From Isoptericola halotolerans (GTDB lineage Bacteria > Actinomycetota > Actinomycetes > Actinomycetales > Cellulomonadaceae): a stretch of DNA of 64,000 bases. The position numbers and the translations under genes are program-made. The notes beneath the pieces were generated by a model. It did no database searches. It saw only the letters and a program-made list of their open reading frames with translations, and was not told the origin of the DNA. Position 1 is the first letter of the stretch. The number at the start of each line of letters is the position of its first letter. The stretch covers positions 271,930-335,929 of the forward strand of contig NZ_JABEZU010000004.1 in assembly GCF_013149785.1 (NCBI RefSeq), written 5' to 3'. Shown here in pieces: positions 22,254 to 47,960 of the stretch.

Positions 22254-22365
22254 GAAGCCATCCAGAGCGGCCGAGAGTCCTGGCTCGACGACGCCGCAGC
22301 AACCCGTTCTCCGACGGAAGCCTCCCGAGGACGAAGGTGCTCAACACCAGGCCCGATGGAGTGAC
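22249..22365 (+). promoter_or_regulatory. SAM riboswitch (S-box class)
   Basis: The leader carries the S-box core: ATCCAGAGCGGCCGAGAG, then GCAACC in the P3/P4 junction, then AAGGTGCTCAACACCAG. The closing helix P1 pairs CCATC (22258-22262) with GATGG (22355-22359), and GTCAC with GTGAC. The 3' strand of P1 contains the metF Shine-Dalgarno GGAG (22358-22361), six bases before the ATG. SAM binding is therefore expected to block translation directly. Confidence 0.88.
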
Positions 22366-37880: not shown

Positions 37881-38078
37881 CTCTGTCATGGGACCTGAGA
37901 GTTTTGCCGGTCCGCCTCGCGGGGCGCGCCGACTTGCACCGTCGGTGGGCCGTCCGCCCCCAGGGCGTCCGACCACTTTTCAGAGTTGCCTCGCCGCGAC
38001 GGTACGGGGGCCTGAGAGATTCCCGGGGAGGGTTTGCTCCTTCGGCGCCGGCCGGGGCCGGGCTCTCCCGACGCGGTT
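37881..38078 (-). promoter_or_regulatory. tandem glycine riboswitch
   Basis: Read on the minus strand, two aptamers follow each other. The first runs from GGGAGAG through CCGAAGGAGCAA and AATCTCTCAGG to GGCGAGGCAACTCTGAAAAG. The second has CCACCGACGGTGCAAGTC and ACCGGCAAAACTCTCAGG. These are the conserved glycine-binding core strings. The element ends about 40 bases before the gcvP start, so excess glycine would switch on gcvPTH. Confidence 0.88.
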
Positions 38079-38122
38079 CGAGCGGCTATGCGGTTGTGCG
38101 GCCGCTGGGGCCGCGCGTCAGT

Positions 38123-47102: not shown

Positions 47103-47131
47103 TTGGCACGCTCCGCCGTCGGGCATAGCGT
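47103..47131 (+). promoter_or_regulatory. promoter of the small RNA/micro-ORF unit
   Basis: A -35 TTGGCA (47103-47108), a 17-base spacer and a -10 TAGCGT (47126-47131). Predicted start is at about 47138. Confidence 0.65.
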
Positions 47132-47164
47132 CGTGCTCACCAACGAAGGGAGGTGATCCGAGAA

Positions 47165-47203
47165 GTGAAGACTCTTCGGACCAGCGAGGTGGTCGCGGGC
47201 TGA
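47165..47203 (+). CDS. 12-residue micro-ORF (MKTLRTSEVVAG)
   Basis: A GTG start 11 bases after an unusually complete Shine-Dalgarno (GGAGGTGATCC). The frame encodes MKTLRTSEVVAG and stops at TGA. The last five codons form the 5' arm of a hairpin whose loop contains the stop. Not in the usual size range for a protein; it could be a regulatory peptide or a translation-control device. Confidence 0.45.
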   Translation: MKTLRTSEVVAG

Positions 47204-47219
47204 GTCCCGTGACCACCGG

Positions 47220-47284
47220 GACCCGCGGGTGCCGTGCCATCGTCCAGCACGGCGGGAGAAGACTCCGACCCGCGGGTCTTTCCG
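47220..47284 (+). terminator. compound terminator of the small unit
   Basis: The 11-base arms GACCCGCGGGT (47220-47230) and ACCCGCGGGTC (47268-47278) enclose a second stem, GCCGTGC/GCACGGC (47231-47253), and are followed by TTTCC. Confidence 0.7.
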
Positions 47285-47290
47285 TGCCTG

Positions 47291-47917
47291 CTAGCCCTTG
47301 CCGCGCTCGCAGTAGTCGGAGATCGCGTCCGCGGCGACGTACTGCGTGACGGGGTCGGGCGAGGACGCGCAGTCCGCGACGTCCACCTCGAGCTCCTCGA
47401 ACGAGATGACCGCCGCGTCCACCGCGTCGCTGCCGTCGCCGCAGGTGATCGTCACGTCGCCCGTGGTGCGCTCGGCGTAGGCGTAGAGCACGTGGGTGCC
47501 CTTGCCCACGTCGGCGAGCAGCCCGTCGGACTCGACGACGTCGGGCACCTCGGCCACGTCGACCAGCCCGCCCGCCACGGCGTCGCGCACCATCGCCTGC
47601 TGGTTCTCCGTCGCCCCGGACGTGGCGGTGGCGCCGGCGGACTCACCGCGGACCCACTCGCTGCGCACCGTGGTGGCGCCGTCGGCGGCGACCTTGACCA
47701 CCTTCACCGCCGTGTAGAGGTCCTGCGAGCCCGGGCTGCCCTGCCACTCGACGGACACGCCGTCGCCACAGCTGCTCTCGACGGCGGGCGCCGTCTCGGC
47801 CGAGGCGCTCGGCGAGGCCGCGGCGTCCGTGCCGGGGCTGTCGGCCCCCGCGCACCCCGCCAGCAGCAGCACCGCACAGCCCGCCGTCGTCATCGTCCAC
47901 CGTCGTCGGTCGAACAT
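47291..47917 (-). CDS. hypothetical lipoprotein
   Basis: A 208-residue secreted protein. The signal peptide ends in a lipobox LLLAGC (Cys near residue 21), followed by an Ala/Ser/Thr-rich spacer. The rest is a compact acidic domain with four cysteines (SSCGDGVSVEW, ITCGDGSDAV, VADCASSPD, DYCERG) likely forming two disulfides. No family recognised. GGAGG precedes the ATG at 47917. A LacI-type palindrome lies 44 bases upstream. Confidence 0.78.
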   Translation of the reverse strand: MFDRRRWTMTTAGCAVLLLAGCAGADSPGTDAAASPSASAETAPAVESSCGDGVSVEWQGSPGSQDLYTAVKVVKVAADGATTVRSEWVRGESAGATATSGATENQQAMVRDAVAGGLVDVAEVPDVVESDGLLADVGKGTHVLYAYAERTTGDVTITCGDGSDAVDAAVISFEELEVDVADCASSPDPVTQYVAADAISDYCERGKG

Positions 47918-47960
47918 CGAACCTCCCGCATCGTTGCGCATCGCTGCCGCAACCTATCCG

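Follow-up and report, generated by a model that had tools for sequence, protein, structure and literature searches.

The window, by which we mean the whole stretch of 64,000 nucleotides of Isoptericola halotolerans DNA that was analysed, carries a short RNA gene on its forward strand. The features of this locus, in window coordinates, are the following.

47103..47131 (+): -35/-10-like promoter TTGGCA-N17-TAGCGT (TTGGCA 47103-47108, TAGCGT 47126-47131), read from the sequence
47139..47285 (+): Ms_IGR-5 RNA (RF02471), whole modelled transcript, placed by the Rfam covariance model
47146..47159 (+): extended Shine-Dalgarno (SD) AAGGGAGGTGATCC, with 14 contiguous pairs, one of them G-U, to the 3' end of 16S rRNA
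47148-47159 (+): SD core GGGAGGTGATCC, read from the sequence
47165..47203 (+): 12-codon ORF MKTLRTSEVVAG, GTG start and TGA stop, read from the sequence, its frame kept in homologs
47178..47181 (+): GGAC of codons 5-6, possible partners being the terminator-hairpin loop GUCC or ATCC of the SD (helix P1)
47186..47191 (+): second SD-like motif GAGGTG, within the ORF, ending 9 nt 5' of the stop codon, present in 142 of 142 homologs
47188-47199 with 47206-47217 (+): helix P2, 12 pairs, one of them G-U, from covariation and RNAalifold
47220..47284 (+): compound terminator, stem 47220-47230/47268-47278 followed by TCTTTCC, from sequence and fold
47231-47237/47247-47253 (+): inner terminator hairpin, loop GUCC at 47242-47245, the loop being conserved in most homologs

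The initial methionine of the ORF is encoded by GTG, and the 5' strand of P2 coincides with codons 9-12, so that the stop codon sits in the loop. The original prediction, made from the letters of this DNA, had described this promoter, a 12-codon ORF, a 12-pair hairpin with the stop codon in its loop and a compound terminator. All were found where they had been placed, the hairpin with one G-U pair and the terminator with stem, inner hairpin and TCTTTCC. Sequences of the form TTGG.. and TA...T lie at the same upstream place in many homologs, as judged by eye and uncounted, with about 20 minus-strand loci mis-oriented. The RNA folds better than its shuffled versions (z = -5.26, with 0 of 200 shuffles as good), and part of the SD is paired in the window's minimum-energy fold. 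ARAGORN finds no tRNA or tmRNA in the window. Two riboswitches lie elsewhere in it, a glycine riboswitch (37990-38080, minus strand, RF00504, 63.1 bits) and a SAM riboswitch of the S-box type (22255-22362, plus strand, RF00162, 49.7 bits).

The element matches RF02471 over the full model (positions 1-184 of 184) with 48.4 bits, against a gathering threshold of 45, and an E-value of 8.4e-08. It is thus a member of Ms_IGR-5, a known actinobacterial family that Rfam types as an sRNA gene. Its own genome holds one match. Matches were found in 72 of 98 relatives, the own genome counted among them, and in 70 of the 396 genomes sampled from the phylum; these searches used strict filters with one match listed per genome, so weak copies may be missed. 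A motif pattern recovered 0 of the 26 relatives without an Rfam match; tried on known cases, it recovers 67 of 71 positive relatives and 103 of 119 homologs, and some diverged copies may therefore have escaped it. As 26 of 98 relatives are without a match, Ms_IGR-5 appears dispensable. Among 14 control genomes, that of the actinobacterium C. glutamicum was without an Ms_IGR-5 match; a control search with 6C RNA gave a signal there, below its cut-off.

The founding description of Ms_IGR-5 is that of Li et al. 2013, in M. smegmatis, as cited in the parts of PMC10454040 and PMC4109619 that were available. Extracts of further papers report a transcript of the family in S. lividans (PMC8079986) and S. 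avermitilis (PMC8780764), and the M. smegmatis transcript overlaps ncMSMEG15794c (PMC10454040). Ribosome footprints on Ms_IGR-5 are recorded for M. abscessus and M. smegmatis in an excerpt of PMC4974804, whose authors describe such protected RNAs as being without clear evidence of translation. The portions of the literature searched contain no description of an ORF in Ms_IGR-5 and no function for it. The comparisons below were made on two nested sets. The first comprises 119 homologs (71 of the 72 matches among relatives and 48 of 67 further matches in the phylum), and the second 142, after the addition of 20 fetched later, which gave 139, and of three from a pattern search in the order of genome G236.

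Attenuators are usually built from an SD, a short ORF, a hairpin and a terminator, and the element could in principle be the leader of a downstream gene. We consider this extremely unlikely. In the window, the next ORF downstream (47291-47941) is antisense to the element. No phylum-wide neighbour gene was found in the 1.5-2 kb flanks of the 119 loci, and the widest family of co-directional downstream genes covers 10 of the 119. The widest family on any one side and strand lies upstream, in 29 of the 119 loci, all from the window's genus or family. A cluster of neighbours spanning 46 loci on mixed sides and strands was taken for chained low-complexity ORFs, and the clustering was repeated with side, strand and score limits. 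With an antisense neighbour and no conserved co-directional gene, the claim that this is, by its context, a free-standing unit rather than a leader holds.

The SD had also been predicted to be complementary to the extreme 3' end of 16S rRNA. The tail of the genome's own 16S rRNA was confirmed, and the 14 contiguous pairs are formed with it. Within 3.97 Mb, the 12-base core RGGAGGTGATCC has three occurrences: this one, one on the antisense strand of 16S itself and one at another place. The duplex between the SD and the 16S tail has an energy of -29.6 kcal/mol, against -18.4 for the best of 106 mechanically chosen ORF starts in the window, a comparison that serves as a rough yardstick because starts chosen in this way are often wrong. 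Sampling 22-base stretches at intervals of 11 bases gave 11,634 of them, none with a duplex as strong as this one. Across the 119 homologs, it ranges from -25.8 to -30.6 kcal/mol when scored against the same tail, which was confirmed in the window's own genome only.

A frame open from start to stop follows this SD in 142 of 142 homologs. It begins with ATG, GTG or TTG in 122 and with a near-cognate codon (ATT, ATC, ATA, CTG or ACG) in 20, none having neither; the near-cognate rule was set after the first cases had been seen, and its chance hit rate is about 1/6 by a simple estimate. The ORF is 10-15 codons long, 12 codons in 98 homologs, and its start lies 5-11 bases 3' of GGAGGTG across the homologs examined. 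In the first 119, canonical starts 6-11 bases after GGAGGTG are distributed over the three phases as 111, 1 and 1, and the stop position is identical in every one of the 119 (89 TAG, 24 TGA and 6 TAA). A canonical start with an open frame to this stop is present in 108 of the 119; with the start nearest the SD-distal end taken, 93 of these frames have 12 codons and the others 11, 13 or 14. The distance from the SD to the GAGGTG motif varies by single bases and that from the start to the motif by steps of three. The 20 later homologs have the stop at the usual site in 16 cases and one base earlier in four, with the start phase matching. Their canonical starts fall into the three phases as 9, 4 and 1; three of the four belong to phase-shifted forms described below, and L257 and L261 have an off-phase canonical start beside an in-phase one. 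These comparisons indicate that translation of the ORF appears to be conserved across the family. The original prediction would have been refuted by a lack of conservation of the ORF, the SD or the stems in relatives, and the comparison with relatives did not refute it.

Near-cognate starts are normally filtered out by IF3. AUC, AUU, AUA or CUG replaces AUG, GUG or UUG in the deep-branching L101, L102, L104, L107, L108, L110, L114, L116, L117 and L119, and likewise in L245, L247-L253 and L259; ACG occurs in L059 and in one reading of L259. Such starts in deep-branching homologs may be meaningful for what the RNA senses.

In each of the 119 homologs scored, the SD duplex is far stronger than at the ordinary starts sampled, as would suit an RNA that acts as a sink, holding 30S subunits or terminating 70S ribosomes and so lowering or reserving ribosomes under some condition. 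GAGGUG, which in the main form precedes the stop by 9 nt, would fit such a role, as would the ribosome footprints on homologs in the excerpt of PMC4974804. A sink needs neither frame nor stop, yet the open frame is there in every one of the 142 homologs, and a single gene would have to reach a very high copy number to matter. We regard this explanation as unlikely. Titration of 30S subunits, one of the three options first offered for this locus, is possible, but taken alone it leaves the kept frame unexplained.

The peptide encoded by the frame drifts. Among the 93 twelve-codon ORFs, residues 2, 3 and 4 take 14, 10 and 12 kinds of amino acid, and residue 7 takes eight. We counted distinct one-base exchanges between close pairs of these 93 ORFs, setting aside 80 multi-base exchanges, and the numbers are small. 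In codons 2-4, 22 of 32 exchanges are non-synonymous against 25.2 expected neutrally, and in codons 10-12, 9 of 13 against 9.1. In codons 5-7, a stretch held by RNA pairing, 7 of 15 are non-synonymous against 11.4 expected. T is present in 92 of the 93 twelve-codon forms and E and V in all 93, and these residues are spelled by the invariant GGAC-N and GAGGTG.

In seven homologs from two separate groups, the stretch is one base shorter, start and stop have moved together and GAGGTG is read in another phase. They come from three genomes of the class of G367, and from G236 and three genomes of its order, those three being alike here; their peptides include MLQTSGGDCS and MHSDCRGGSS. In L252, which belongs to the seven, the start is near-cognate only. 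An Rfam search of the class of G367 matched 3 of 36 genomes, all three already known. A pattern for the phase-shifted form matched 0 of 36 in that class, its spacing being one base too short for that lineage, and 4 of 42 in the order of G236, one being G236 itself, already known. That the start-stop phase survives while the peptide changes wholly is, on this comparison of homologs, the strongest evidence against conservation of the peptide.

These observations bear on whether the locus is a micropeptide gene, whose product of 10-15 residues (..RTxEVxxR in most) would act in trans. A conserved frame and the near invariance of T, E and V in the twelve-codon forms would be expected of such a gene. 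The invariant residues are, however, those spelled by the invariant RNA motifs GGAC N and GAGGTG, the other exchanges are near neutral, albeit in small numbers, and the seven phase-shifted homologs make unrelated peptides. We judge a peptide acting in trans very unlikely, and the micropeptide option raised at the outset is disfavoured, the frame being conserved and the peptide not. A dual-function sRNA had also been proposed. The near-neutral exchanges, few as they are, and the phase-shifted homologs do not match an sRNA whose peptide is under selection. Of the three options this one still comes closest, with the difference that translation itself appears to be the second function. Since the frame is kept readable and the peptide is free to change, the pattern suggests that it is the passage of the ribosome that matters.

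The ORF is also tied to the rest of the RNA by base pairing. Covariation was counted, and RNAalifold run, on 59 of the 119 homologs, hand-picked for variety before counting. In the first helix, P0, RNA bases 2-5 pair with codon 7 and the following G. All four pairs form in 94 of the 119 homologs and in 18 of the 20 later ones, with the sets CACG/CGTG, CATG/CATG, CACA/TGTG, CCAG/CTGG, CGTA/TACG, CATC/GATG and others. Its variable positions are paired in 109, 109 and 102 of the 119, against shuffle maxima of 85, 83 and 88, and 45 cells have changed on both sides compared with 10.3 in shuffles. P2 joins codons 9-12 to the segment just 5' of the terminator; six of its positions exceed every shuffle in the set of 119, and 87 cells have changed on both sides compared with 29.6. 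RNAalifold, unguided, finds six pairs of P2, five of them with compensatory changes. The GGAC of codons 5-6 can pair with the GUCC in the loop of the terminator hairpin, and here 22 cells have changed on both sides compared with 9.1; in L056, a change of GGAC to CGAC is matched by one of GUCC to GUCG. In the window, this pairing is limited to the four pairs of GGAC with GUCC. P0, P1 and P2 taken jointly give 132 cells changed on both sides compared with 40.4. For P0, P2, the loop pairing and the joint helices alike, none of 500 shuffles reached the observed number of cells.

When one partner was slid by one to three columns, which keeps relatedness, paired cells fell from 86.6 to at most 36.6 percent, and the slid controls were far lower for each of P0, P2 and the loop pairing; the helices were read from the same sequences, so some excess over the slid versions is expected for that reason alone. 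Two measures described as least misled by relatedness are the number of pairs changed on both sides and the number of further pair types. The observed values were reached by 163 and 107 of 500 shuffles, respectively, for the joint helices, by 469 and 46 for P0 alone, by 60 and 302 for P2 alone and by 25 and 7 for the loop pairing alone. Because the varied columns give the shuffles many pair types too, we read values this near the shuffles as saturation; even so, they do not support the helices. On the whole alignment, RNAalifold found neither P0 nor the loop pairing. Its three-pair hairpin inside the SD was taken for an effect of invariant sequence. P1, the pairing of GGAC with the four bases after GGAGGTG, is similar to stem 1 of the structure in Rfam; no pair in it has changed on both sides, and the loop pairing is better supported. 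From these comparisons, pairing of codons 5-6 with the terminator loop is probable. The bases of P2 that face GAGGUG vary more than GAGGUG itself and are unpaired in up to 18 of the 59 homologs; as GAGGUG is nevertheless never lost, it seems to be kept for more than the helix. In L009, L010, L011, L014 and others, a sequence CGGACGGA(T/C)TG recurs, by eye, between the stop and the 3' strand of P2. The terminator loop CGUCC and the conserved GCGAATCC ahead of P2 are possible partners for it, though not consistently from homolog to homolog.

Helices are also relevant to a plainer account, in which the element is a base-pairing sRNA whose terminator-proximal part regulates, translation of the ORF mainly protecting the RNA or tuning its decay. 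The compound terminator with its conserved loop GUCC is in keeping with this, and translated ORFs are present in some known sRNAs, according to the extracts of the literature consulted. Protection would not require the ORF to be bound into the RNA as closely as the covarying helices bind it, and we find this account distinctly unlikely.

The window's own copy is a reduced form. In it and in L061, L065, L066, L068, L069, L072 and L073, the long segment that separates the ORF from the 3' strand of P2 is absent, and the same subclade keeps one or two of the four P0 pairs, the window one. The window copy retains the SD, the start, the frame, the stop, GAGGTG, P2 and the loop GUCC. With P0 lost or weak and the segment gone, the arrangement may be simplified or decaying in this subclade, and functions deduced from the full form may hold only partly here.

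The reading that we favour, tentatively and at a little under an even chance, is that the Ms_IGR-5 ORF serves as a runway for ribosomes rather than as a code for a peptide, and that the RNA is a ribosome-operated switch reporting translation capacity. Its basis is comparative: an extreme SD, a start, a frame of 10-15 codons and a near-fixed stop are kept in every homolog examined. Under such a scheme, the SD, which the comparative fold places between P0 and the start, would capture a 30S subunit. The translating ribosome would pull apart the loop pairing, P0 and P2 on passing the codons. At the stop codon, GAGGUG would pair with the anti-SD of the same ribosome, slowing release; with the ribosome at the stop, the P-site codon lies 6 bases 3' of GAGGUG, a usual SD distance. 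A ribosome at this position would leave the 3' strand of P2, which contains CACC and is anti-SD-like, single-stranded together with the segment before it, and the freed strand could then act, most simply by pairing with other RNAs. That the 3' arm of P2 drifts together with its partner speaks against a single, fixed set of RNA targets. With ribosomes scarce or initiation failing, the RNA would refold.

A family filed as an sRNA appears to be translated in every homolog examined, and the evidence tells conserved translation apart from a conserved peptide, a caution that a conserved small ORF need not mean a functional peptide. The footprints reported on Ms_IGR-5 could be explained by a translated ORF. 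If the ribosome is the effector, the element would be a bacterial RNA sensor for ribosome availability, testable with single-base mutants. What is new, as far as the literature searched extends, is that the frame is conserved and that the peptide drifts and shifts phase, together with the putative P0 and loop pairings; the Rfam consensus structure of RF02471 is without the frame, the P0 helix and the loop pairing proposed here.

Among known systems, tmRNA and the ribosome-dependent attenuators are RNAs with a very short ORF and a behaviour governed by the ribosome on it; the window differs from the attenuators in having no co-directional gene downstream. The peptides of VcdRP and SgrS have functions of their own, the SgrS ORF being SgrT. 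As is proposed here for Ms_IGR-5, these two RNAs and rnTrpL/peTrpL of Sinorhizobium are, in the parts of the sources available (PMC8672173, PMC4021124 and PMC10117765, respectively), small free or released RNAs with a translated short ORF. The peTrpL peptide likewise has its own function (excerpt of PMC10117765), whereas in Ms_IGR-5 the frame is conserved and the peptide is not.

The closest likeness in plan is with CC2171 (RF01867), a Caulobacter RNA that Rfam types as an sRNA gene. No paper naming both CC2171 and Caulobacter turned up in the literature searched. The window is no member of that family (19.4 bits against a cut-off of 75, and no match anywhere in the genome). Named genomes scanned with a CC2171-consensus motif gave at least 119 stretches. 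Among the 80 loci listed (L120-L199), 79 have titles of taxa that belong to the Alphaproteobacteria, and L186 is titled only 'bacterium'; 3 of 10 of the listed loci scanned pass the CC2171 cut-off. As in Ms_IGR-5, a perfect SD AAAGGAGGTGATCC, required by the search pattern, is followed by a short ORF and a terminator. The start codon, which lies outside the pattern, stands exactly 1 nt after GATCC in all 78 readable listed loci, two having run off their contigs. The ORFs have 14-33 codons in 77 of these loci and 56 in one, L160, which is probably a different gene using the same perfect SD. The short ORFs (MSHC.., MSHGSA.., MSRxxLE..) come right after the perfect complement of the 16S tail, and by eye their C-terminal residues diverge. 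In 43 of the 78 loci, the 150 nt that follow the stop contain a perfect 6-nt partner for codons 3-4, against a mean of 2.4 and a maximum of 7 in scrambled versions; the 35 loci without it belong mainly to other lineages (MSS.., MSR.. and the Bradyrhizobium type). In the Bradyrhizobium/Rhodopseudomonas form (L126, L130, L133, L145, L178, L185, L188 and L196), a 14-codon ORF (..KRCHLA..AR) contains TCACCTC, a complement of its own SD, and could hide its own start.

Helix and spacing in the CC2171-like RNAs differ from those of Ms_IGR-5; by analogy, they make up a different family of similar plan that may work alike. A broader proposal follows, which we hold as doubtful: a class of RNAs would use a near-perfect complement of the 16S 3' end to load a ribosome on a micro-ORF with a useless peptide, passage and a tethered stop would switch the fold, and the ribosome itself would be the ligand. 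Such RNAs would be wide in Actinomycetota, with a separate origin in the CC2171-like elements of Alphaproteobacteria, and would gauge free ribosomes or the capacity or fidelity of initiation, the near-cognate starts of the deep lineages of Ms_IGR-5 fitting a gauge of fidelity.
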